From the IMG/VR virus record IMGVR_UViG_3300008117_000011, positions 124,001-188,000 of that record: DNA of 64,000 nt; one strand, written 5' to 3'. Source of the DNA: a virus. This document shows, piece by piece, positions 42,901-58,890 of this stretch; position 1 is the first letter of the stretch; each line of letters opens with the position of its first letter. The translations under genes and the position numbers were made by a program. Below the pieces are notes generated by a model. The model did not search any database, was not told the origin of the DNA, and saw nothing but the letters and a program-made list of their open reading frames with translations.

Positions 42901-45108
42901 ATTAAACTTAGCTGCTAGTTCATATAAATCATATTTTACGCAACCAGCAAAAAATGAATCCATTATTGAGTCAATTCTTTCTGGTGGAACGTTTGCTAGT
43001 TGTTTTTCAATAATTGTGTTCATCGCTGATGGGTGGTCAACAATAATTTTCCAACTTATACTTCCACCTCTTGTTGTTTCTTTGTATGTATATATTGGTT
43101 CTGGTCTACCTAAAAATGATGTTGGGTTCCAAGTGGCTCTTGAGGATTCACTAAAACTTAAATCATAAGGTGGGAACCACATAGTTCTACCTCCGTTTGG
43201 TCCTTTTTCACAAGTCGGTAAATCTTGATATGTAAACCCTGGTCTGTCTGATGTTCTCCAAGCTAAGTTTTCAAGTGAGAACATATATTTCTTTACCTTA
43301 CCATCAACAATGTTTGTTGATCCTGGATTTCTTAATGGTGCAATATTTAAATTAAATGTATTATCAAGAACTGAATTATTAAATCTTCTTCCAGCTGTTG
43401 TAATACCATCAGTTTTTTGTAAATCAGCATATGTTAGATATGGTGTATCTTTTTGAAATACTCTACAATATTCAATTCCAGCTTCAGCTCCAGATGTGTT
43501 ATCGGTATATGAAACAACCCTTGACCCTTTTGTCATTTCTTTATACCCATCATTGAAAACTTTTGATACTTGATTAATTGCGTTTCCAACGTGTTGTAAT
43601 CTTCTAATACCAGTTACACTATCAGCAGAGTCTACAAGTCGTTGAGTATTATCAAGTATTGACCCTTGTTTAAACTCAAATCCGGTAGATTCGGTATCAT
43701 CATTAAATTCATTTTTAACTTCAAAAAATTCTTCGTCCTGACTTGTTGGGTCTCCGCCAGGTTTTACTTTAAAGCCTAAGTTATCTTTATATTTTGGTGA
43801 TACCCAAGTAAATTGTCCTGTAATACCCCCTTGGTCAGAATATGATTTACCAGCAAGACCAAATTTTATTTTTGCGTCATTACCTTCATATAGTTTTCCA
43901 AGTTCAGACGGTCCGTAAACTGGTGATGGTTGTTGTTTACCATAAGCGTCAACCGGAATTTCATTATCTGGTGAATCAACTCTTGATGGGTCAGTTTTTT
44001 CGTCTCCAACATAAAATCCACCACCTTGTGTTGTATTGTTACCTAATAAGTTATTAATGGCTGTTGTAGCACCCAAAAGTAATCCTTTGTTATAACTTGG
44101 TCTATATTTGTTATAATCTAAACTTTTAAATAAAACAGATTTTTGTCCGTACCCAGTGTTTGATAAAAATAATTCTGACGGATTTCTATATTTGTTTAAT
44201 ATTGGGCCAAGTAGTCCACCAGTTAAATTATTAACAACATTTAATGCATTTTCTGTTTGTGGTGAAAGAACTTGATTTGTTTCATCAAAGTAATCACCAG
44301 GAATAAAAGATACTGGAAAATAAGTTCCAGTTATTCTATTTAAAAGATTTACACCAGCAAGTAATGGGTTTTCTGGTACAGTAATTTTCCAGTTCTTACC
44401 AATAAGTGGTTGTTGTCCCGTTGCAACAAGACTTGCCTCAAATGGGTCTTGTAGTGAATCTAAATTTACAACACTATTTAAAATTTGTTGCTCTTCATAT
44501 GCAATTCTTTCTTCAAAAGCAAATTTTAAAGAATCAGCACCTATTTTTGCAAGAAATGAATCTTGTGATAAAGGCCCATCTGATCCTTGTGGTGTATTTG
44601 ATGTAATAATTTCAAATGGCGTGTATTGTGAAGGAATAAATACAAGCGGATTTAAATCATAATATGGTAAAAAATATTGGTATCCAGGGGTTACGTCAGT
44701 TACAATTACCAAATCTTTGTAACCAGCTTCTGGTCCAAATGCATTTTTTACATATGCCGCATCAATATAGAATTCATTTATAAGTTCTAAATCACTATCT
44801 TCATATCCATATTCTCCTTGGTTTGACTCAACTGGAAGTGGTGGATTATTTGTGTTTACAATTACACTATAACCACCTTCTGGACCATACTCATTTAACG
44901 GATAAAGTTCATTTGCTTGAACTGCTGTTCCTACTAAGTCATTTGGTGAATCAATTACTGAATTATCAGAAAGTGGCGTTGCTTCATATACAACATCACC
45001 TGCTGGTGCTGTATAAGCTCCGGGAACATTATATGGTGCCAGGTTTCTGGCAATAAGAGTGTTCCTAAACGATGAGGATGATGCAAATGATAATGAGCTT
45101 TCTGACAT
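39997..45108 (-). CDS. Tube-initiator/hub-like protein with an embedded OmpA-like domain
   Basis: This 1703-residue protein starts MSESSLSFASSSSFRNTLIA. Two regions resemble repeated tail-tube initiator or baseplate-cap modules: about 640-720 (WFPPYDLSFSESSRATWNPT, then GRPEPIYTYKETTRGG) and about 1190-1280 (LVLRIGDFFHSKIIPNDLQ, then ISYEPLLYDINPEGIGVQP). Between them (about 905-1000) lies KVTIELTGSASAP, AYNKKLSQRRNSVVENWF and FSSLGEETVIPN, the pattern of the OmpA C-terminal peptidoglycan-binding domain. A Cys-rich stretch with FNCVDGNCIEV and a PTPTPKPT linker follow. The last 350 residues are helical and charged. It sits directly after the tape measure, the place of gp48/gp54 in T4, and a TATTTATA element precedes it. 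Confidence 0.65.
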   Translation of the reverse strand: MSESSLSFASSSSFRNTLIARNLAPYNVPGAYTAPAGDVVYEATPLSDNSVIDSPNDLVGTAVQANELYPLNEYGPEGGYSVIVNTNNPPLPVESNQGEYGYEDSDLELINEFYIDAAYVKNAFGPEAGYKDLVIVTDVTPGYQYFLPYYDLNPLVFIPSQYTPFEIITSNTPQGSDGPLSQDSFLAKIGADSLKFAFEERIAYEEQQILNSVVNLDSLQDPFEASLVATGQQPLIGKNWKITVPENPLLAGVNLLNRITGTYFPVSFIPGDYFDETNQVLSPQTENALNVVNNLTGGLLGPILNKYRNPSELFLSNTGYGQKSVLFKSLDYNKYRPSYNKGLLLGATTAINNLLGNNTTQGGGFYVGDEKTDPSRVDSPDNEIPVDAYGKQQPSPVYGPSELGKLYEGNDAKIKFGLAGKSYSDQGGITGQFTWVSPKYKDNLGFKVKPGGDPTSQDEEFFEVKNEFNDDTESTGFEFKQGSILDNTQRLVDSADSVTGIRRLQHVGNAINQVSKVFNDGYKEMTKGSRVVSYTDNTSGAEAGIEYCRVFQKDTPYLTYADLQKTDGITTAGRRFNNSVLDNTFNLNIAPLRNPGSTNIVDGKVKKYMFSLENLAWRTSDRPGFTYQDLPTCEKGPNGGRTMWFPPYDLSFSESSRATWNPTSFLGRPEPIYTYKETTRGGSISWKIIVDHPSAMNTIIEKQLANVPPERIDSIMDSFFAGCVKYDLYELAAKFNTIPTDKLYTYQQILQNPGATDEEIKLVNQEIVGNTGGQGTNGSNSTSDGSKKGDNQTTETFTSKVSDVTQDTFGNDLNKFIGYGFYFDNDYPIGQTSFETNLNSSFQFWYDQYIGKKSTDYVSKAPAKVISAGKEYTSSGVAPFFNKVVEGNFNAIKTEFLPKLKELLVDYQGKVTIELTGSASAPAKEAYNKKLSQRRNSVVENWFKDQTVGDKKISEWIEGGQVKFSFSSLGEETVIPNTSGDPSITNVVCTADIQDASTNKVTSLSQWYSVPAMACRRVAITKINIDSFTPPPVDIEVVEVPVVNPIVPVDNRRFNCVDGNCIEVTSPNDPAQFTGETNCRNACGKENIEAPKPTPTPKPTIDKKIKDGISKQVLRTLFSECDYFEVIKETNPMVYSSFKDKIKFFNPAFHSMTPEGLNARLTFLQQCVRPGQTIPVIGPDGKPKYNDARNTSFGAPPVLVLRIGDFFHSKIIPNDLQISYEPLLYDINPEGIGVQPMIAKISLGFDFIGGQGLANPVQQLQNALSFNFYANTEIYDERSIPTESTKDKDEALVQKILNNNPGLGVNNGDIQNLIPEKGGSTIGTILSTSNFDDGAYQTGNIEYTKLFENLSTSTNTYFTTIFNQLKSINEVRNYPTLQILSKTRNYSKGNLPEKENEQAIPPIEVEILGKMIQYEDLVTSLIKQTIKDIEDDNCPLVRPIATDEYSKQTKREYKNKLIELVSEQENKILDDTVGFINELTNYQQNYVQIFKDLDLVIGNVIDGYKLETGKYKVYNLDNVLNQSKQQELQKIYPDKIVTNLNDYFKTINDKKILNNSFVDDSNFTFVPLVNGILLDDADLRFYFVMSNIFTDDSKYNTFVESIITERVKLNTTMENTIKETCASVKTEHIKEFDAEKKVFTDFETSPEYQKFVNFKIDKPESELEYSTEVNDNTKDNQKLLKEAYSDLNTNKKKNTFNGKVAFD

Positions 45109-45122
45109 TTATTTCATTTTAA

Positions 45123-45130
45123 TATAAATA
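45123..45130 (-). promoter_or_regulatory. Late-promoter-like TATTTATA element
   Basis: The sense core TATTTATA is followed by 14 nt before the ATG of the 1703-residue gene at 45108, in a 48-bp intergenic gap. Confidence 0.55.
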
Positions 45131-45156
45131 GATTGTTGTTACTTTTTATAAAAATA

Positions 45157-45450
45157 TTAATCTTTATTAGTAAGTCTTGGTCCTGTTAAATTATACCTAT
45201 TTTCAACATCCATAATTCTTGATCTAATCAAATTAATGTTGTTATTACTTTCAGCACCTGTAAACCACTTTTCAACACCTTGTGATATTAATGTTGTTAG
45301 TGCTTGATTTTGTAAATTAGGGTCCATTGTTACATTTACATCAACTTTTATATTTTCATTAATATCAATTGGCTTAAATTCAATCGCATTTAAATTTTGT
45401 GAGATTGATTGACTTGAAATTTTTTGTTCAACTTGAAATTTTTTGTTCAA
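45157..45450 (-). pseudogene. C-terminal part of the tape-measure frame, separated by a frameshift
   Basis: This open frame has no ATG; its only early candidate start is TTG inside a 19-bp tandem repeat. The first residues (VEQKISSQSISQ) repeat the last residues of the tape-measure frame (KVEQKISS). Removing one repeat copy joins the two frames into one 672-residue protein. The remaining sequence (NLNAIEFKPIDINENIKVDV and on) is therefore best read as the C-terminal end of the tape measure. It may be made by frameshifting, lost, or split only by a sequence or assembly error. Confidence 0.65.
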
Positions 45451-45453
45451 CTT
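45412..45453. repeat. 19-bp tandem duplication within the tape-measure gene
   Basis: The unit ACTTGAAATTTTTTGTTCA is present in 2.2 exact copies (period 19, total 42 bp). Because 19 is not a multiple of three, the second copy shifts the frame by +1 and creates a TGA stop at 45428-45430. Confidence 0.95.
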
Positions 45454-47194
45454 TGTTTAATGTTGTATTTGTACCTCCTCCCATTTCTTGAAAATTACTA
45501 TATGGGTCGGTTGTTGATCCACCGATTCCGAACTCTTTTGCTTTTTCGGCAATATAATCATATGTACCACCAAAAATATCTTTAATATTTTTACCTAAAT
45601 TATCTATCATATTTTGTGCTCCAGTAAAATCAAAATTAGTTAAATCAAAACTACTTAAACTTGTCATAACGTTACTTAAGTCTGTCACAAGAGTTTTTGC
45701 CACATTTGCCAAAACTTCAGTACCTTTTTCGCCACCAAATTTCCTCCAGGTTTCAGTTTCGGTGTACATAGGTGTAACAAAACCTTCAGTACCTAATCTT
45801 TTATCACCAAAAAGTTTTTCTCTAGTGGTTGTTGTTGCAAAATCATAACCAGCAAGAACATCTTTTTTTGTTGCAATTCCCATTCCAATTGCTTCAACTA
45901 AAGATTTAAAATTTGCATTTAATTTTGTTTGTTCACTTAATTGGTCAAAGGCAATTTCTTCCATTGATTTGCCTCGTAGTTCTTGATCTTTTTTGATGTT
46001 TTCAAGTTCTTTCACTGTGAGTTGTGAAGCTTCAACTGTTCTATATTCACCAGTTCTATTACCTTCTGCGTCTAATTTTGCAACTTTGATTTCAGCAACA
46101 CCTTGTGCGTTTACTTCAGCTAAAGTTGCGATAAGTTCTCTATCTTCTTTTGATGCAATACTTGATGGGAATCTAATTTGTTTCATTTTCATATCAAGAT
46201 TAGCGGCGTTAAGGGCCATTTTTTGAATTGCCCCATCAGCTAGTCCAAGTTCTTTTCCGATTTCATTTAATCTTCTTTTTTCACCTGGCATAATTTCAAA
46301 TTGGCCTAATTCTTTGTTAAAACGAACAAAATCTTTTGACATATTAACAATTTGATTTTGAAGTTCTGTTGGGTCATTTTGAGATAGATCCATCAATCGT
46401 AATGGGTCTAAAAGAGCGTTTGCTGAAACCCCTAGTCTTTGCATTGCTGCAGCAGTTTCTATAGCACCTTTAGGGTCAAATACTTTATCTACAATTGTAA
46501 ATATTTGTGACATATCAATTCCCAATTTTGAGGCTTGCGCTGACATTTTTGCGAGGCCTTTAACGCCACCCTCAAAATTATAGATATTCATTTTATCTAG
46601 ATTTTTGACGACTTGTTCGGATACTGCCGAAACTGAAACACCTGCCTGTCTTGCGATTTCTGCAACCTGTGTCATATTTTCACCAACTTCTTGAATACTA
46701 ATACCAACACCTCTAAATCCACCAGCTAAATCCTTTGCATTAATATTAGTTACTTTTGCTGTCGCACCAAGTTCAAGTAAATCTTGATCAGATACTGAAA
46801 TATCAGTTTTAAATGTATCAGCTAGAGCTTGATATGTCTTTCCAACGTCAGCAGTCTCAAGACCTATTGATGCAAATTTAGACGCACCATCTGCAATTAA
46901 TTTTTTAAATTCATCAACTTTTTGTGAACCTAAACCAATAAAACCTCTTAATCTAGCTTGTTCATCATCTAAAAATCTAGATGTTTTTAGAATACCAGAA
47001 GTACTAACAAGGGCATTACCAATATCAGCAAAATATTGTGATGCCTCCTTTAAACCATCTCTACCTTTGGCAATATTAGCATAGAAACCTTCAGTAAATG
47101 ATTTTGTTAGTATATCACCTTTTATTCCTGCCGAATCACCGGTACCAGATTTACCTTCAACATCAGAACCTTCTGTACTTTGGAACATTAACAT
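45428..47194 (-). CDS. Tape measure protein (frame truncated by a 19-bp duplication)
   Basis: This 588-residue helical protein contains GRDGLKEASQYFADIGNALV near its start and long stretches typical of tape measures: NMTQVAEIARQAGVSVSAVS, GGVKGLAKMSAQASKLGID and AAAMQRLGVSANALLDP. It sets tail length and is threaded inside the tube. It lies between the assembly chaperone and the tube-initiator-like gene, the standard order. T4 gp29 has 590 residues. The frame stops at TGA 45428-45430 directly within a tandem duplication; without it the protein would have 672 residues. The start ATG at 47194 is followed in frame by a second ATG two codons on. A TATTTATA element lies 9 nt upstream. Confidence 0.85.
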   Translation of the reverse strand: MLMFQSTEGSDVEGKSGTGDSAGIKGDILTKSFTEGFYANIAKGRDGLKEASQYFADIGNALVSTSGILKTSRFLDDEQARLRGFIGLGSQKVDEFKKLIADGASKFASIGLETADVGKTYQALADTFKTDISVSDQDLLELGATAKVTNINAKDLAGGFRGVGISIQEVGENMTQVAEIARQAGVSVSAVSEQVVKNLDKMNIYNFEGGVKGLAKMSAQASKLGIDMSQIFTIVDKVFDPKGAIETAAAMQRLGVSANALLDPLRLMDLSQNDPTELQNQIVNMSKDFVRFNKELGQFEIMPGEKRRLNEIGKELGLADGAIQKMALNAANLDMKMKQIRFPSSIASKEDRELIATLAEVNAQGVAEIKVAKLDAEGNRTGEYRTVEASQLTVKELENIKKDQELRGKSMEEIAFDQLSEQTKLNANFKSLVEAIGMGIATKKDVLAGYDFATTTTREKLFGDKRLGTEGFVTPMYTETETWRKFGGEKGTEVLANVAKTLVTDLSNVMTSLSSFDLTNFDFTGAQNMIDNLGKNIKDIFGGTYDYIAEKAKEFGIGGSTTDPYSNFQEMGGGTNTTLNKVEQKISS

Positions 47195-47203
47195 TTTTTA
47201 TTT

Positions 47204-47211
47204 TATAAATA
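47204..47211 (-). promoter_or_regulatory. Late-promoter-like TATTTATA element before the tape measure
   Basis: The sense core TATTTATA lies 9 nt (15 nt to the second ATG) upstream of the tape-measure start. It lies just after the end of the +1-frame chaperone extension (stop 47220-47222). Confidence 0.45.
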
Positions 47212-47219
47212 CTTTCTTA

Positions 47220-47366
47220 TCATTTTTTATCTTCAAGTAACTTGTCAATGGTATACTTTCTAAAATAGGTGGGCATTATCAAATAATCACTATATGATAG
47301 ATGAAGCATTTTTGCTAAAAAAATGTATTCGTCAATAATAATTTTTCTATACTCAGAAGAAAGGCC
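47220..47366 (-). CDS. +1-frame extension of the tail assembly chaperone
   Basis: This open stretch of 48 codons plus stop lies in the +1 frame relative to the gp26-like gene and reads through its stop. It codes GLSSEYRKIIIDEYIFLAKM, then LHLSYSDYLIMPTYFRKYTI and DKLLEDKK. It has no ATG before residue 20. A TTT-TTT-C sequence at 47373-47367 would let the Phe tRNA slip +1 from TTT to TTC, adding these 48 residues to the first 250 residues of the upstream protein (298 total). Short extensions ending in an MPxxxRxxxxxKL helix, placed just before the tape measure, are typical of the longer form of tail assembly chaperones (lambda G/GT arrangement). Confidence 0.6.
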   Translation of the reverse strand, partial: GLSSEYRKIIIDEYIFLAKMLHLSYSDYLIMPTYFRKYTIDKLLEDKK

Positions 47367-48117
47367 GAAAAAATTCAACCCCAAAAGTAATGTTTACCAT
47401 TACTCTTTCTCCAGACGGGGCTATAACTTCTTTGTTTAAATCTAATCTTGGTTCATTGTTTACCAAAAATGATCTTATATATTTAGAATCCATTATAGGC
47501 ATTGACTCAACAAATTTTCCAATTTCAGATCTGTCTTGTGATCCGTTTATTTCAACAATTTGTTTGGCAAGTCTTAATGTTATAATTGGTGCTGTTCTTC
47601 CTTGAGGGTATGAATCAACAATACTTTCAATTTCAAGCGAATCCCTAAGTGTTAAAAGTTTTAATTTAACAGTCGCCTTACTTCTTGGTAAAGTTGTTGT
47701 AAATGTACCATCAGTATCTGGTTGTGCTTCACATTTTTTGATATCCATCTCATCTAGTAAAATTGATGATTCAAATTTTTTCTCAGTTTTTGGGTCAATA
47801 AGTGTTACTTTATATTCCGGACCAAAAGATGTGTTTCTTAAAAATAAAAGTATTGCTTCAATATCACCATCAAGCAAATCTTCCGGACGAAGATCTGGTT
47901 CGTAAAGTTTATTTCTTAATAGTGGTAATACAATTGTTTCTTTAATTGTTTTATTACCCTCAATATTAAGTAATATATTCTCATCGCTTGCGGTTAAATA
48001 ACCCACTTTAACTGATTTCTTTTTTGATGGGTAAAAAATACCACCTGATGGTAATGGTACAACATCGTGTGGTAAGTTAAAATTCATTTGTCCAGCATCA
48101 TTTACACTTATATCCAT
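47353..48117 (-). CDS. gp26: gp26-like baseplate/tail assembly chaperone protein
   Basis: This 254-residue protein starts MDISVNDAGQMNFNLPHDVV, followed by PLPSGGIFYPSKKKSVKVGY and LTASDENILLNIEG. This resembles the T4 gp26-type family (baseplate hub/assembly protein). It contains IEAILLFLRNTSFGPEYKV and ends VNITFGVEFFRPFF. Its place between the tail tube and tape measure is that of the tail assembly chaperone, and a +1 frameshift near codon 250 would add a 48-residue tail. It is likely an assembly factor rather than a final virion part. The TATTTTTA element 13 nt upstream and a terminator before that make it the start of a new transcript. Confidence 0.7.
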   Translation of the reverse strand: MDISVNDAGQMNFNLPHDVVPLPSGGIFYPSKKKSVKVGYLTASDENILLNIEGNKTIKETIVLPLLRNKLYEPDLRPEDLLDGDIEAILLFLRNTSFGPEYKVTLIDPKTEKKFESSILLDEMDIKKCEAQPDTDGTFTTTLPRSKATVKLKLLTLRDSLEIESIVDSYPQGRTAPIITLRLAKQIVEINGSQDRSEIGKFVESMPIMDSKYIRSFLVNNEPRLDLNKEVIAPSGERVMVNITFGVEFFRPFF

Positions 48118-48130
48118 AACTTTTTTATTA

Positions 48131-48138
48131 TAAAAATA
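48131..48138 (-). promoter_or_regulatory. Late-promoter-like TATTTTTA element
   Basis: The sense core TATTTTTA is followed by 13 nt before the ATG at 48117. One base differs from the usual core, but the spacing is exact. Confidence 0.45.
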
Positions 48139-48161
48139 CTTGACTTATGTTTTTTGTAAAT

Positions 48162-48190
48162 AAAAAATCCCATACTTGAAATATGGGATT
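48162..48190 (-). terminator. Terminator after the tail tube gene
   Basis: A 9-bp stem (AATCCCATA, 48166-48174; TATGGGATT, 48182-48190) with a 7-nt loop is followed leftward by TTTTTTATTT. It lies 23 bp beyond the gp19 stop, so the abundant tube message ends here. Confidence 0.85.
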
Positions 48191-48212
48191 AGTAAAAATA
48201 TGTAAAAAATAA

Positions 48213-48701
48213 TTAGTACACGAGTATACAACGATCCATTCGTAAACCACAAGTAATATCAGCAAGTGCATCTTGACTATAAGATAATGTACCAAAGTTA
48301 GCTGAAGTTAAAAATGTTCCTTCTAGAATCCACTTCTCAACAACAACACCTGTTGGATCTAACATCTCAAGGTCAACATTTTTCTTATATCCTGCAGCAT
48401 AACCCATACGACCAGTTACTGATTCAGCACATAAACGAACCCATTCCATAAGTGCTTGTGAGGCTGATGGTCCAATTGGGTCACGGAATTTAACTGAAAT
48501 TTCATCCCAAGTAAATCTACCTGCAACATATGTTGAGGTGTTTAGGAACTGAATCTCAGTTGGGTTTATTTTTATTGAAGGCCGAGACGCACTTTCTACA
48601 TACCATTCATTTATACCCAAACTTGATGGAAATCTCAAGATAAACCTGTTCTGTCGTTTGGGCTCATACGGAACCGGCATCTTCATTAATAAATCAGCCA
48701 T
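48213..48701 (-). CDS. gp19: Tail tube protein gp19
   Basis: This 162-residue protein contains PYEPKRQNRFILRFPSSLGI and NEWYVESASRPSIKI, then SQALMEWVRLCAESVTGRMG and KKNVDLEMLDPTGVVVEKWI. This matches the T4-like gp19 tube protein, which forms the hexameric inner tube of the contractile tail. T4 gp19 has 163 residues. A TATTTATA element 34 nt upstream and a strong terminator 23 bp downstream give it its own short transcript, as expected for an abundant protein. The HAD gene, not the sheath, is its direct upstream neighbour. Confidence 0.93.
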   Translation of the reverse strand: MADLLMKMPVPYEPKRQNRFILRFPSSLGINEWYVESASRPSIKINPTEIQFLNTSTYVAGRFTWDEISVKFRDPIGPSASQALMEWVRLCAESVTGRMGYAAGYKKNVDLEMLDPTGVVVEKWILEGTFLTSANFGTLSYSQDALADITCGLRMDRCILVY

Positions 48702-48735
48702 AGTTTTTTAATTTTTAATTATGTTTATTTTTTAT

Positions 48736-48743
48736 TATAAATA
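48736..48743 (-). promoter_or_regulatory. Late-promoter-like TATTTATA element before gp19 (long-leader class)
   Basis: The sense core TATTTATA lies 34 nt before the gp19 ATG. The same 34-nt spacing occurs before the sheath gene and the ribbon-helix-helix gene. Confidence 0.5.
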
Positions 48744-48766
48744 TATCCGTAATAAATTTTTTCTAT

Positions 48767-49720
48767 TTACTTTGATTTAATTTTGGATACAATTCTATTA
48801 ATTAAGTTCTCTATTATTATTCCTTCATTTAATTCCTCTTCTTTATTATCAGTTTCTATATGAATTTTTGTATATCCTCCTTCTGAAGTATCTTGAATTA
48901 TAAATTTAACTTCTGGATACATCCTTGATAATTCATTTCTTACAAATTCTATCATAGCTTTAACATTCCTTGGGTCATCGTCTGAAAACCCTAATGAAGC
49001 ACTAACATATTTGCCACTTCTAATTAAGTCGTCATATTTTGAAATAAAGTCCGCGAGGGCCACCTTTTTGTTATGTTCAGGGTTTGCCGCACCACCACTA
49101 ACTTCTAAACCAAATCTTTCTCCAAACTCCGGAGATGAAACCGGGTAGTAATCCCCTTTTTCGTCAAGATATAAATCAAGAATTTGATTTTTATCCAAAT
49201 ACTCTAATTTTTCAATAAAATCATCACTAAATTCATTTTCGTGTTTTAAAGTGTCAATAATATTTTCTAACATTTTTTCTTTTTCTTCTGGTGACAATAC
49301 TAAATGAATAAACATTTTAACACCCTTTTTAAGTACTTCTGGGTTGTGACCTCTAGCTGTAATAATTGAAAATGGATTAGCGTAAATTAAACTTTCTTTA
49401 AATTTGTTAAAACTTGGGGATTTTTTATTTTTAAGTATTGCCTCTTTTGAGTCTCTTAAAAAAGTGTCCGGTAATGTAAAATCAATAAAAGCCTCTTTTG
49501 GGTTGTTATTTCTTACTCTATAATCTGGTTCTGTTCTAATCTCCGCAAATTTTTCAGTTGACACCTCAATTGGTTTCCATCTTTTACCAACTTTTTGATC
49601 CATTTTGATTTTGGTCGGCATTTGTAAAATATTATCGTCCCAGTCAAAAGCATAGAGTCTTAACTTTCTATTGCTTTTCATCTCTAAAAGAATTTCTCTA
49701 ACTAATTTTTTGTGATTCAT
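48767..49720 (-). CDS. HAD-superfamily phosphatase-like protein
   Basis: This 317-residue protein starts MNHKKLVREILLEMKSNRKL. It has LRLYAFDWDDNILQMPT (motif I, D-x-D, about residues 25-27), FSIITARGHN (motif II Thr) and LGFSDDDPRNVKAM (motif IV acidic pair), the order found in HAD hydrolases. The lysine of motif III is probably in the KVALADFI region. Length suggests an inserted cap. The substrate is unknown; nucleotide or polynucleotide 3'-phosphatase activity (as in PseT) is one option. It ends with EELNEGIIIENLINRIVS, where LNE-G resembles a T4 prohead-protease site. It lies between sheath and tube genes and has its own TATTTATA element 14 nt upstream. Confidence 0.65.
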   Translation of the reverse strand: MNHKKLVREILLEMKSNRKLRLYAFDWDDNILQMPTKIKMDQKVGKRWKPIEVSTEKFAEIRTEPDYRVRNNNPKEAFIDFTLPDTFLRDSKEAILKNKKSPSFNKFKESLIYANPFSIITARGHNPEVLKKGVKMFIHLVLSPEEKEKMLENIIDTLKHENEFSDDFIEKLEYLDKNQILDLYLDEKGDYYPVSSPEFGERFGLEVSGGAANPEHNKKVALADFISKYDDLIRSGKYVSASLGFSDDDPRNVKAMIEFVRNELSRMYPEVKFIIQDTSEGGYTKIHIETDNKEEELNEGIIIENLINRIVSKIKSK

Positions 49721-49734
49721 AATAATAAATATTA

Positions 49735-49742
49735 TATAAATA
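49735..49742 (-). promoter_or_regulatory. Late-promoter-like TATTTATA element before the HAD gene
   Basis: The sense core TATTTATA is followed by 14 nt before the ATG at 49720. It overlaps the end of the T-run of the sheath terminator, so termination and re-initiation sites are packed together. Confidence 0.5.
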
Positions 49743-49770
49743 AAAAAAGGGAGAACTTGTCCCCCTTTTT
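49742..49770 (-). terminator. Terminator after the tail sheath gene
   Basis: Read leftward, GGGGGA and TCTCCC pair over 6 bp (one G-U), flanked by pairing A and T runs, and the hairpin is followed by TTTTTTTATTT. It lies about 17 bp beyond the sheath stop. Confidence 0.8.
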
Positions 49771-49786
49771 CCTTATTCTATTTTTA

Positions 49787-52700
49787 TCACACATCCTCAA
49801 ACGAAGCACCTGTTGGTGTGATGTAGAAGGTAATGTCAATAAATTCAAGAGATTTTGTAGGTTTGATATAGATTTTACCAACAAGTTGGTTTTTATCTAA
49901 ATCTTCTGTACTATTAGAAACTGTTACTCTAAAGTCATACAAACCTCTATCTCTTCTAATTGCATCAAGAATTGGGTTAACCGCATTCAAGAAGTCCTGT
50001 CTTACTTGTTGATCATTTTGATCAAACAATAGCCTTACAGAAACCGCAGAAATCAACTTACGAGCTTGTAGTAACAATCTTCTTACGTTAATTCTGTCAA
50101 GAGCAGATTCTCTTACTTGTAGAGTTTTGTTACCCCAGATTACAGTACCAACATCAGAGAAAGTTGCAATTGGGTTAATTCTACCAAGGTAAAGAACATC
50201 TCTATCTTCTTGTGTCAACTTCTTACGAGCTTTAACCGCATTAACAATACCACGAGTATAACCAGCGGCCGCAAACCAAGGGAATGCAATGTTATCAGTT
50301 AACGCCAAGTTTCTTGTAACTTCAGCTGTTGGTGGTATGTAGATTTGTGTATTATTCACAGTATCTCTTGTTAATACCCAAGGATAATAAGTTGCTGTGT
50401 AGTTAGAATCAATTCCTGTTTCTTCTAACAAGTCAACAGCTTCTTGTGGGTAAATTAAACCATCAGATTCAGTTGTTGTTGCTTGGAACATATTAAAGTC
50501 TGGCATTGTTGTTACATAAAGTGAGTCAGCTCTTTCGTTCTCAATCATATCAATTGTACCCTCAACAAGACCGGAGTTATTGTAAAGATCAATACCCGGT
50601 GTTGTAAATACATTGATGTTAACAGCTTCAGGATTTGCAAATGTTCTAATACCTAACATATAAGCATAGTAATCTGTGTTACCGTATTCCACACTACCAT
50701 CACCGATAGATATTTGTTTGAATAGTCCGTTTCCAGTACCATTAGGGTATCTTGTTGATGTGCACGCTCCTTTTAAGAAACCAGATCTACCAAGAGTAAA
50801 CTTATCTGCGTTTGTTCTATATTCTCTATAGATGTCCCATCCGTCAAATCCACCATAAACAAATACTGTGAATTTTCTTGAGTTTAATCTGTAGTAAGGA
50901 TTCTCAGGGTCAGTTGGTTCAGAAGAGAATGATGTATTACCAACCTCAAACGCTGGAGTTCCAGATGATGCGTAAACACTTGAAATTGTTACAGCACTAG
51001 CGAATTGGTCCATATGGTATCCTTTTGTTTGGAAATCCCATTCAACACCTTCACCAGTACAAAGATTAAGAGGTCGTCTTTTTCCTTTATATTGGAAGAA
51101 ATCACTATCGTAACCCCAGAATGATGAAAGTCCAAGATATGTTCTTCTTACGTTATCCCCAGGACTTGTAAATACATCGTCAATTCCGTTAGATAATCCA
51201 AATGGTGGGTTATAAACAACTTCACCAGGTATATCATATTTAGTTTTGTAAACTGGGAATGGAGATGTTACTCCCGGATATTCTCTAAATGTATAACCTC
51301 TAAATCCACAAGGAAGAGCGTCAATTGGTGCGTCCTCATTCATCTCTATTAAAATGTATTTAGAATTCAACACGTATTCACCATCAAGAGTTCCTACTTT
51401 TTTAGCGATGAAATTATTTTCTTGTGGGTTCATAGAACAATTTGTGAACTTTTCAAGAACTGTTGGGTTAGCATCACTATCAAAATAATCTCTAATCAAT
51501 AATGTGAATGTTAAATTATTAAATGAAATATCAGAAATTGACACTTTAATTTCAGTGTTTGCTGAATTACCATCAGAAATGCTATAAACTTTAAATAAGT
51601 TGAATACTTTATTACCTCTAACTTCAGAAACAACCCAAGGTGTTACAGGGGACTGGAATCTATCTAAATACCATCCAATTGTATTAGGGTCATTTGCTTG
51701 AGCTTCTTCTGTTGTTACAAGTTCAGAACTTAATCCTCTAATAAATCCTTTATTCCATCCATAACTTAAAAGAGTTTGGAAATTTTCTTCAACCATAAGT
51801 GGTGTTTGTAATCTTGGTTTACCAAAGTTACTTTTCCCAAATACTTTATTGATATTTTTAGAGTCGTTTGAAGACAATGAAACCTCAAAGTCAAAATCAG
51901 TACCAACTTTATTTGTCGCATTGATTGCAAATTTAGCGAAAGGATTTTTCTTAACTGAAGAATAAACACCTGTCATATCTAAAGTAACATCAGTAACACC
52001 AGTGATTTCGTAAACTGGGTTAACATCAGTACTATAAGTTGAGATACCTCTTGATCTTAAAGTTACAACAACTAAGTCATCATATTCAGTGTATGATGTT
52101 CCAGTGTAATAATAGATAACACCAGTAACATTACCAGAATAGCACTCATTTACAATTGGGGCTGTTGGTGTTGGCGTTGGTGGAACTGGAGTTAAAGTAA
52201 CACAAGGATCTGGTGTTGGTGTTGGCGTTGGTGCCGCACTTGTTGTTGTGGTTGTAACCGGTGTTATATTTGTTAAATCCGTTACTGTTGTAAAGAATGA
52301 ATAACCAGTATAAAGACCTGAACCAACATTGTCCATAAGGGCATAATACCAAGCATCGTTAAGTGGTGATGAAGTGTCTAAAGATTCAAAAGGAATTGAC
52401 TCAACACCAAAAACATTTGTTTCTTGTGTATATCCTGTTGTACTTAAATATGTGTAATCACTTTCTGGTATAGCACCAAAATAGTAAACAACCTCATCTT
52501 CCGCAGTTGATGGGTTACTACTTGTTATCACATCTGAGACCATTAAACTAATTTGGTCATCAAGAGTTGTGATGTCACCATCTAACTCTTCATATTCCTC
52601 AGTCAACATACTTTCAATGTCAGACGGAAAAGCACCTAAGAATAATACGTTAGTTGGATTGAGTGTACAAGCACTAAAAGGAATTGAGAATGACAATTCT

Positions 52701-56794: not shown

Positions 56795-56802
56795 TATTTA
56801 TT
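56795..56802 (+). promoter_or_regulatory. Late-promoter-like TATTTATT element before the fusion gene
   Basis: GTATATTTATTATATAA precedes the ATG at 56809, leaving 6 nt after the core. It lies in the 31-bp gap after the SNF2-type helicase gene and suggests late expression of the fusion protein. Confidence 0.4.
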
Positions 56803-56808
56803 ATATAA

Positions 56809-58890
56809 ATGAGAGTTAAAGTAAAACACGTAAAATGTGATATGTCTGAAAAGGACAAAGAACTTATGAACGATTTTATTAAGTTCTTACAGAAGAAGTA
56901 TCCTTTAAAGGATGATATTACTATTATTTTTACCGGTGAAAGATATGGTAAAATGTCCACAGGTAGTAGGACACAAGATTCTGAACTTAAGATTTTCACT
57001 AAAGACAGAATGAATAGGGATATTGTAAGAACATTAGCTCACGAATGGATACACGAAAGACAAATTAAAATCCAAGGTAAAAAACCAAAACAAGATATTG
57101 GTGGTCCCCTTGAAGATGAGGCAAACGCAAAAGCTGGTTCTGCAATTAAACAGTTTGAAAAGGAGTTTCCAAAAAAAGAAGAGTTAATGTACGAAGGTAT
57201 AAATAATAAGTTAAATCTGATTAACGAGCAAATCTTATTAAAGGAAAAGGAAAATATTAAAGGTGAGTTTTTAACCGAAATGAAAAAAATCGGTATTGAA
57301 AAATTACCTTATTCATATTCAGCTTTAAAACAATTTGTGGATCCGGAAACAATGGATATTCATTACAACAAACACTATAAAGGTTATGTCAAAAAATTAA
57401 ATGACGCTCTTTCTAATAAAAAAGGTGAAATGGAGCTTGAGGATATTGTAAAAACAATATCAAAGTTTAACACTAAAGTTAGAAACAATGCTGGTGGTGC
57501 TTTTAATCACGCGTTATTTTGGAAAATGTTATCACCAAAAAAACAATTACCAAAAGGTGAGATATTAGAAAAAATTACAAAACAATATGGTAACATCAAA
57601 AAAATGAAAGATGAATTCAATGATGTTGCTAAAGAAAGATTTGGGTCCGGATGGGTTTGGCTTGTTTTAACAAAGACAAATAGACTTAAAATTATGTCAA
57701 CACCAAACCAAGATAATCCACTTATGAATGTTATTAAAGATGGTGGATATCCACTTTTAGGTTTAGATTTATGGGAGCATGCTTATTATTTGAAGTATAG
57801 AAATAAAAGGGATGAATACATTAAAAATTTCTGGAATTCTGTAAACTGGGAATTTGTAAATGAACTTTTTGTTTCAAAGACAACAAAAAAGTTAAATGAA
57901 TCATATATGAAAATTTTATTAGAAAACGAGGATTTACAACCAGATCTGAAAAAAATTATGAGTCGTGAATTACAAAAAATTAGACTTATACCATTAGATG
58001 CTGAGGCAGGAGCCGAAGCAATTAACAACATTACAACAGCTGAAATTTCAAGGGGGAACCTTGACTTTAATAGGACTATAAGTGGACTTATGACTCTTGA
58101 TTTATCAACTGTTTCTGAAAGATCAAAATATAGATTTAATAATTATTTTCAAAGATTTATTAAAAGCAAAACTAGAGGTTTTGACTTTGAGGGTATGGTT
58201 ACCGGATTTCTTGATGGTGAACTAGCAACAAGCTTATCGTCTCCTTATGATATCTCAACATCAGAGGGAGATTTAATTTCTTGTAAAGTAGTTAGAGACA
58301 CTAATGAAAGAATATCACTTAAAAGTATTAGGACTGGGGTTAAAGATTTTGTTGAGAAATACGAAGGGTCAGAAGAAAATAAATATATATTAAGTGGGTT
58401 AACTCAATTTCCAAATTTTTTAGAACTAGTTGTAACACACGAAAATTCAGATATACAAAATCAAGGTGAAGATATTTTAAACAAATTACTTATTGATATT
58501 ACAGGATTACTTGTTGGTGTACCAAACTCACAAAATCTTGGGGTTGATTTATACTACTATGATAAAGCTCGTCTAATTGAACTTGCTAAAACACCAGGAA
58601 TTCTAAAAGCTGGAAGATCAGCTGAAGCTCAAACAATATCCTATTCGGCTAAAATACTTAAAATGGGTACAACCAAAAGTGGGTTTATTCAGTTTCCGAT
58701 TGTTACTCAAGAACAATATGCCGAATTTTTAATTGGTAATGAAAAAACAAAAGAAATTGTAAATATTTTTAACACTATGGGTGAAAAATATGGAGTCCCA
58801 AGATTAGGTGACAATATCCCACAAGATATTATTAGGGATTTATCAAAAAATGAAAGATTCAAATTAGATATTAGAAGAATACTTAAATAA
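56809..58890 (+). CDS. Three-domain fusion: HExxH metallopeptidase-like, Mn-superoxide dismutase, unknown C-terminal domain
   Basis: Residues 1-125 carry RTLAHEWIHERQIK (H78-E79-x-x-H82) and LEDEANAKAG, with E102 or E104 as likely third zinc ligand. Residues about 163-355 form a complete Fe/Mn superoxide dismutase domain: ETMDIHYNKHYKGYV (H185), RNNAGGAFNHALFW (H234), GSGWVWLVL, NQDNPLM (Q301) and LGLDLWEHAYYLKYRNKRDE (D320, H324). Gln in NQDxPLM, and no Gln on the NH-x-x-F-W helix, point to the manganese type; it would convert superoxide to oxygen and hydrogen peroxide. Residues about 366-693 are unrecognised; FEGMV, PYDIST and LISCKVV (460-495) loosely recall a PD-(D/E)xK nuclease. I138-N-E140 and L362-N-E364 lie in the linkers. 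The frame is open throughout and the next gene, 31 bp on, is gp13. Confidence 0.88.
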   Translation: MRVKVKHVKCDMSEKDKELMNDFIKFLQKKYPLKDDITIIFTGERYGKMSTGSRTQDSELKIFTKDRMNRDIVRTLAHEWIHERQIKIQGKKPKQDIGGPLEDEANAKAGSAIKQFEKEFPKKEELMYEGINNKLNLINEQILLKEKENIKGEFLTEMKKIGIEKLPYSYSALKQFVDPETMDIHYNKHYKGYVKKLNDALSNKKGEMELEDIVKTISKFNTKVRNNAGGAFNHALFWKMLSPKKQLPKGEILEKITKQYGNIKKMKDEFNDVAKERFGSGWVWLVLTKTNRLKIMSTPNQDNPLMNVIKDGGYPLLGLDLWEHAYYLKYRNKRDEYIKNFWNSVNWEFVNELFVSKTTKKLNESYMKILLENEDLQPDLKKIMSRELQKIRLIPLDAEAGAEAINNITTAEISRGNLDFNRTISGLMTLDLSTVSERSKYRFNNYFQRFIKSKTRGFDFEGMVTGFLDGELATSLSSPYDISTSEGDLISCKVVRDTNERISLKSIRTGVKDFVEKYEGSEENKYILSGLTQFPNFLELVVTHENSDIQNQGEDILNKLLIDITGLLVGVPNSQNLGVDLYYYDKARLIELAKTPGILKAGRSAEAQTISYSAKILKMGTTKSGFIQFPIVTQEQYAEFLIGNEKTKEIVNIFNTMGEKYGVPRLGDNIPQDIIRDLSKNERFKLDIRRILK

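Follow-up and report, generated by a model that had tools for sequence, protein, structure and literature searches.

The window, a stretch of 64,000 nucleotides (positions 124001-188000) from a virus record 223,671 bases long, carries a gene for a 693-residue protein that joins a metallopeptidase-like domain (M), a superoxide dismutase (SOD) domain and a C-terminal domain (C1), with linkers on either side of SOD (Table 1). An initial annotation of this DNA had described one uninterrupted frame coding for all the domains. This was borne out, with exactly the boundaries it had assigned: the open reading frame is intact, has an ATG start and contains zero internal stops.

Table 1. Features of the fusion gene and its upstream region, in window coordinates. 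Slashes mark proposed cuts.
Feature	Coordinates	Strand	Basis
TATTTAT late-promoter-like element	56795..56801	+	7 nt before ATG
M + SOD + C1 gene (putative polyprotein)	56809..58890	+	whole ORF, 693 aa
M domain (residues 1-120), zincin-like, HEWIH and EDEAN	56809..57168	+	AlphaFold model, fold matches, invariant residues
Linker 1 (residues 121-157), proposed prohead-protease sites E129, E140 (LINE/Q) and E157 (LTE/M)	57169..57279	+	conservation
SOD domain (residues 158-364, 207 aa), predicted to be released by the proposed cuts	57280..57900	+	Pfam and PDB matches, invariant ligands
Linker 2 (residues 361-373), KLNE/S (E364) and ILLE/N (E372)	57889..57927	+	(L/I)xE occurrence
C1 domain (residues 374-693), PD-(D/E)XK restriction-endonuclease-like predicted fold	57928..58887	+	AlphaFold, Foldseek, stand-alone homologues

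The upstream neighbour of the fusion codes for a helicase of the SNF2 type (Pfam SNF2, E 3.5e-31). The downstream gene has a weak, partial match to a 'head-tail adaptor' PHROG (E 2.9e-9). The setting between a helicase and a neck gene that was described initially stood on the helicase side, with the neck gene reduced to a putative assignment. The late-type element noted earlier was confirmed: TATTTAT lay 4-7 nt ahead of the start codon at all 42 of the homologous loci with distinct upstream sequences. Among the 78 genes in the record's structural half, 23 had the same element within 40 nt upstream. The short gap between the element and the ATG of the fusion genes, about 5 nt, suggests an almost leaderless late mRNA. 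In many relatives (e.g., L004, L009 and L038), a hairpin and T-run resembling an intrinsic terminator directly precede TATTTAT, and for this reason the fusion gene is probably a separate late transcription unit.

We searched IMG/VR for relatives of the fusion. The scan returned 293 places with relatives, some via the SOD part alone, and the best 80 of these 293 were kept. Residue invariance was counted over 46 non-redundant representative homologues clustered at 95% identity, and domain architectures were counted as distinct complete proteins across all loci fetched. The fusion recurred with 100% identity in three more contigs (L001-L003) from three metagenomes. The possibility of an assembly join, raised in the initial annotation, was excluded by these identical copies from other metagenomes and by many diverged homologues with the same domain order, including 31 complete distinct M-SOD-C1 proteins.

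The SOD domain was complete. Both Pfam SOD domains were present and continuous, with Sod_Fe_N (PF00081) at residues 164-242 (E 1.2e-21) and Sod_Fe_C (PF02777) at residues 248-352 (E 3.6e-39), each over its curated cut-off, giving a full Fe/Mn-SOD at residues 164-352. The best solved SOD structure in the PDB matched over residues 165-352 (E 9e-60). The four metal ligands (H185, H234, D320 and H324) and the Mn-type second-sphere glutamine (Q301) listed in the initial annotation were where it had placed them and were invariant in 46/46 homologues, as were the dimer-interface glutamate E323 and the gateway tyrosine Y193. The domain is predicted to have the dismutase activity of a Mn-type SOD. It is also the domain under the strongest purifying selection, with a median dN/dS of 0.12 compared to 0.36 for M and 0.33 for C1. 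Phages often turn enzymes into structural parts, and the gene adjoins that of a putative head-tail adaptor, so a catalytically dead SOD domain could have been retained as a dimeric building block of the phage head or neck. We regard this as very improbable given the invariance of the ligands, the Mn-type glutamine, the gateway tyrosine and the dimer-interface glutamate, the lowest dN/dS being in SOD, and a C-terminal part that is dispensable and swapped, which is unusual in neck proteins.

On the SOD tree, all phage fusions grouped together (support 89/83), and the nearest cellular rows were Bacteroidota enzymes. The best bacterial matches and closest relatives of the domain were Fe/Mn-SODs of this phylum (Chitinophagaceae, Ferruginibacter), at 50-55% identity. 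These are ordinary single-domain cellular enzymes, in contrast to the multidomain phage fusion. A Bacteroidota host is likely for the phage. The initial annotation had called complete SODs rare in tailed phages. This needed correction, since free-standing ones are already known in a few jumbo phages (the PA5oct/MIJ3 group and Vibrio phage 2.275.O). They share the Fe/Mn-SOD family with the fusion but are ~27-28% identical to it, have a single domain, lie in a metabolic neighbourhood and stand apart on the tree. Our search for published mentions of SOD in phages found solely auxiliary-gene lists and eukaryotic-virus SODs.

The M domain was characterized mainly via its predicted structure, as sequence-profile searches of M and C1 against Pfam, PHROG and the PDB gave no match. 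It carries the motifs HEWIH (H78, E79 and H82) and EDEAN (E102/E104). The HExxH residues had been correctly positioned in the initial annotation, and they and E102/E104 were invariant in 46/46 homologues. The AlphaFold model of M (pLDDT 85) has strands at residues 3-8, 37-42, 52-54 and 59-63 and an N-terminal helix at residues 14-30. A helix at residues 69-87 bears HExxH and another at residues 100-119 bears E102/E104, which corresponds to the zincin plan. The first Foldseek match of the model in the PDB was the Wss1 protease (E 4.5e-3, probability 0.99). In the viral library, M matched IrrE/SprT-like phage proteins, with IrrE-like models down to E 3e-6, and some of the viral matches form part of long phage proteins with several domains, for example an 812-aa 'amidoligase' and a 1143-aa AAA protein. 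The models point to a zincin-like metallopeptidase-type domain.

The C-terminal part of ~330 residues had been left unassigned. This still holds at the level of sequence profiles, but structure prediction for residues 374-693 produced a restriction-endonuclease-like fold (pLDDT 84, pTM 0.81). The ten best PDB matches of this model by Foldseek were all restriction enzymes (such as NhoI, Eco15I and HinP1I), with weak E values of about 0.01-0.16 and probabilities mostly of 0.85-1.00. C1 probably has a PD-(D/E)XK restriction-endonuclease-like fold, judging by the model. Its conserved residues follow the pattern E...D...SCK, with a serine instead of the usual Asp/Glu two positions before the catalytic lysine, which makes the predicted nuclease activity uncertain. 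Stand-alone homologues of C1 were found at three loci (L178, L180 and L183). At a further locus (L094, 6894-8941, on the contig of L169), C1 is broken into 602 and 78 aa with M and SOD intact, as if C1 were dispensable.

The family proved to be modular, with M-SOD as the usual core and interchangeable C-terminal domains. Besides the 31 M-SOD-C1 proteins, there were 22 M-SOD proteins with nothing C-terminal and 11 M-SOD-C2 proteins. The other architectures with M were M-SOD-C5-C2 (three proteins), M-SOD-C5 (three), M-SOD-C4 (two), M-SOD-C3 (one) and M-SOD-C5-C5-C2 (one, 958 aa). Two proteins had the order SOD-C2-C1 without M (L172, 878 aa, and L177, 872 aa), and thus hold two nuclease-like modules in a single chain lacking the metallopeptidase domain. 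About 12 architecture changes occurred on the SOD tree, with C2 alone requiring three. As 22 of the 74 complete M-containing proteins stop directly after SOD, release of a C-terminal cargo is not a constant function of the family. C2 carries a PD-(D/E)xK-like motif (E ... QDFDV ... QVK); a sequence search of the PDB with C2 gave nothing significant, so its assignment follows from the motif. A remote stand-alone relative of C2 is encoded in the genome to which the window belongs (45045-45941, E 1e-8 to 2e-11).

The linkers showed a distinct pattern of conservation. Linker 1 is variable save for E129, E140 and E157, each of which was kept in 46/46 homologues, and P3 was L or I in 46/46 at both E140 and E157. 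The T4 prohead protease gp21 cleaves after L/I-X-E (PMC9026906). This (L/I)xE motif was present in linker 1 of 81/81 homologues and in linker 2 of 59/59 homologues bearing a C-terminal extension. Per residue, its frequency was 0.099 in linker 1 and 0.050 in linker 2, compared to 0.0065 in the M and SOD cores and 0.014 genome-wide. L, I, E and K abound in the linkers, and composition alone lifts the motif count; we therefore shuffled the linkers. Shuffled linker 1 yielded a mean of 85 motifs (maximum 106) versus 159 observed, and shuffled linker 2 a mean of 23 (maximum 37) versus 62 observed. When columns were permuted, two fully conserved sites arose in 23/5000 orders. Cuts at E157 and E364 would give a SOD of normal length (207 residues, 158-364) with the N-terminus MKKIGIEKLPYSY. 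In the lineage without M (L172 and L177), the protein starts with linker 1 (MERAANLLKEIILTKEDILSEAKKIGI), and similar motifs are kept at the junctions.

Capsid and prohead-protease genes were looked for in the window's own 223,671-base record and were not found. As this record is a fragment, longer relatives were used for these genes. Four of them encode a gp21-type Peptidase_S77 (PF03420, E ~1e-23); in one relative, the gene for such a protease lies at about G001:C1:135933-136358. Relatives also encode a gp23-type capsid protein (E ~1e-64), the N-terminal part of which ends FLINE/ATSEG; FLINE/A aligns with the T4 cleavage site FLTE/A. Their scaffold-like protein bears LVKE/SLNE/Q. By capsid protein, Flavobacterium phage immuto and Microcystis phage Mel-JY01 are among the closest isolates, at 41-42%.

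These data bear on whether the protein is kept whole. It might be a late cytoplasmic fusion enzyme whose SOD shields host metabolism and phage assembly against oxidative stress until lysis, the linkers being relics of domain shuffling; a late element does precede the gene, and the free-standing jumbo-phage SODs (PA5oct/MIJ3 and Vibrio 2.275.O) lie among metabolic and protein-quality-control genes. We consider this unlikely, because the linker glutamates stay invariant amid variable neighbouring residues, even where the protein ends after SOD, and because the capsid, scaffold-like and protease proteins are marked by the same (L/I)xE motif. Another explanation is that M itself processes the polyprotein, in the head or post-injection, a role that the survey of polyvalent proteins proposes for their metallopeptidase domains (PMC5512222). 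The HExxH and downstream glutamate in 46/46 homologues and the zincin-like model would suit such a role. The junction motif, however, fits the S77 prohead protease and no known zincin specificity, and the M-less lineage (L172 and L177) retains similar junction motifs, which leaves self-processing with a rather small probability.

A cargo-type N-terminal motif is common in this genome. A total of 34 of the 281 genes of the record open with it (MKIIITESQ, MKKVIRLTES or MNLQESIRRILREE), and 30 of these 34 lie within the first 53 kb (Fisher p 2e-13). TATTTAT was found ≤40 nt upstream of 17/34 motif-bearing genes versus 43/247 others. The motif of linker 2 has the same form as the N-termini of these small proteins (e.g., MNLQESIRRILREE). 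Pfam searches with the motif-bearing proteins of the genome mostly gave no match. Bases 1-53000 of the genome (G000; L108-L110), outside the window, form an island of mostly short genes with the N-termini MKIIITES, MKKVIRLTES or MNLQESIRRILREE. The island genes probably encode dozens of capsid-targeted effectors.

At two loci (L055 and L059), stand-alone C4 proteins with the N-terminus MKIIITESQYKLIKENVSLKEKL flank the fusion, in which the corresponding stretch is KKPLNESISLKEKL. Here, C4 gene copies are arranged in tandem around the SOD fusion (L055, 7491-10972; L059, 7046-10963), each with a MKIIITES-type N-terminus. Our reading is that of a duplication beside a gene that captured one copy. 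Since linker 1 serves as an N-terminus where M is absent, and since C4 and C1 also occur as stand-alone proteins, the fusion gives the impression of cargo genes linked in a row, with the motif kept.

Given the (L/I)xE junctions and the swappable C-termini, the protein is probably a cargo polyprotein from which SOD is cut out, not a mere fused enzyme. We find it fairly probable that the product is a capsid-cargo polyprotein, made late by a T4-like phage from a group of large freshwater phages, and that it is packed, cleaved by the phage's protease and injected together with the DNA. The initial annotation had suggested a virion-borne or late-made enzyme. Late expression and the idea of a virion-borne enzyme are both supported, the latter as a prediction from sequence. 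The picture of a fused enzyme gave way to that of a cargo polyprotein. We infer packaging, cleavage and injection, as well as the targets of M and C1.

Under the cargo reading, the precursor would be made late and would enter the prohead core during head assembly. The gp21-type prohead protease would cut after the glutamate of (L/I)xE at E140, E157, E364 and E372, and possibly at E129. Three separate products would result inside the head: the zincin-like protein, the Mn-type SOD as a free chain of 207 residues, and the restriction-endonuclease-like protein. At infection, the cleaved modules would enter the cell along with the DNA. The injected SOD would then remove superoxide in the first minutes, ahead of phage gene expression, and the other injected modules would act on host proteins or DNA. 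In favor of this reading, modules are swapped at the (L/I)xE motif in about 12 architecture changes. Several points stand against it. The N-terminus of M (MRVKVKHVKC) has neither (L/I)xE nor a short capsid-targeting propeptide, so targeting of the precursor to the core is unexplained, and the capsid and protease genes are extrapolated from relatives, as the window's record is a fragment. The linker composition and the 22 proteins that stop after SOD, both described above, also weigh against it. For the broader claim that a large T4-like clade packs modular polyproteins, from which the prohead protease frees Mn-SOD, zincin and changeable nuclease-like effectors for injection, we see the chances as about even.

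We also compared the fusion to other known systems. In T4, capsid-targeting propeptides direct cargo to the head, and foreign enzymes fused to them are packed and injected (PMC9026906). The T4 internal head proteins (IPI-III and Alt) resemble the proteins studied here in the T4-like head module, the gp21-type protease (in relatives), the (L/I)xE sites, and small cargo with N-terminal LTES/LQES motifs and domains of host-takeover type. The fusion differs from them in that one chain holds several enzymes with sites in between and its cargo includes a complete SOD; it also lacks a short propeptide ahead of M, and its packaging is predicted. Polyvalent proteins (Iyer et al. 2017, PMC5512222) likewise combine unrelated enzymatic domains in one chain, including zincin-like HExxH and nuclease-like domains, and are thought to be injected. 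The fusion has at least two unrelated enzymatic domains per chain (zincin-like, SOD and nuclease-like). It differs in having SOD and in a junction motif that points to the prohead protease and not to self-cleavage; the phrase 'superoxide dismutase' is absent from the main text of the polyvalent-protein survey (PMC5512222). Among eukaryotic viruses, chlorovirus PBCV-1 makes a Cu/Zn-SOD (A245R) from a late gene and packages it in the virion (PMC7019647), and a giant-virus SOD is also found in virions (PMC9405923). Like the fusion, the PBCV-1 enzyme is a viral SOD that is made late and has the presumed role of reducing superoxide at the start of infection. It belongs to an unrelated family, has a single domain and comes from a eukaryotic virus, and its packaging was measured, whereas ours is predicted. 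The PBCV-1 SOD is a functional parallel and not a relative.

To our knowledge, an injected SOD would be the first for a bacterial virus. If the cargo reading is true, an antioxidant enzyme is delivered before any phage gene is read, which would imply that the phage's success is limited by superoxide within minutes of infection. T4-like phages would then build new head cargo by joining domains at cleavage motifs, and the head-maturation protease would release the parts. The genome's dozens of small proteins with the same N-terminal motif would be predicted injected effectors, providing an effector list for testing host-takeover and counter-defence functions.

Some other genes deserve mention. 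In the window, between the tube-like and sheath genes, 48767-49720 (-) encodes a 317-aa protein without a family match, which begins MNHKKLVREILLEMKSNRKLRLYAFDWDDN, with a HAD-like DWDD motif after a cargo-type N-terminus. Elsewhere in G000, positions 45910-50031 (L110) encode six proteins in tandem that look related, each of ~230 aa; they have another N-terminus in common, MKNKLKALFAYFRGF and variants of it. Positions 106210-108793 (L113) hold three similar tandem genes (281-294 aa). Close to their start, the products carry NVLSLFDGxSCGQIALNRxGI, a motif typical of DNA cytosine methyltransferases.
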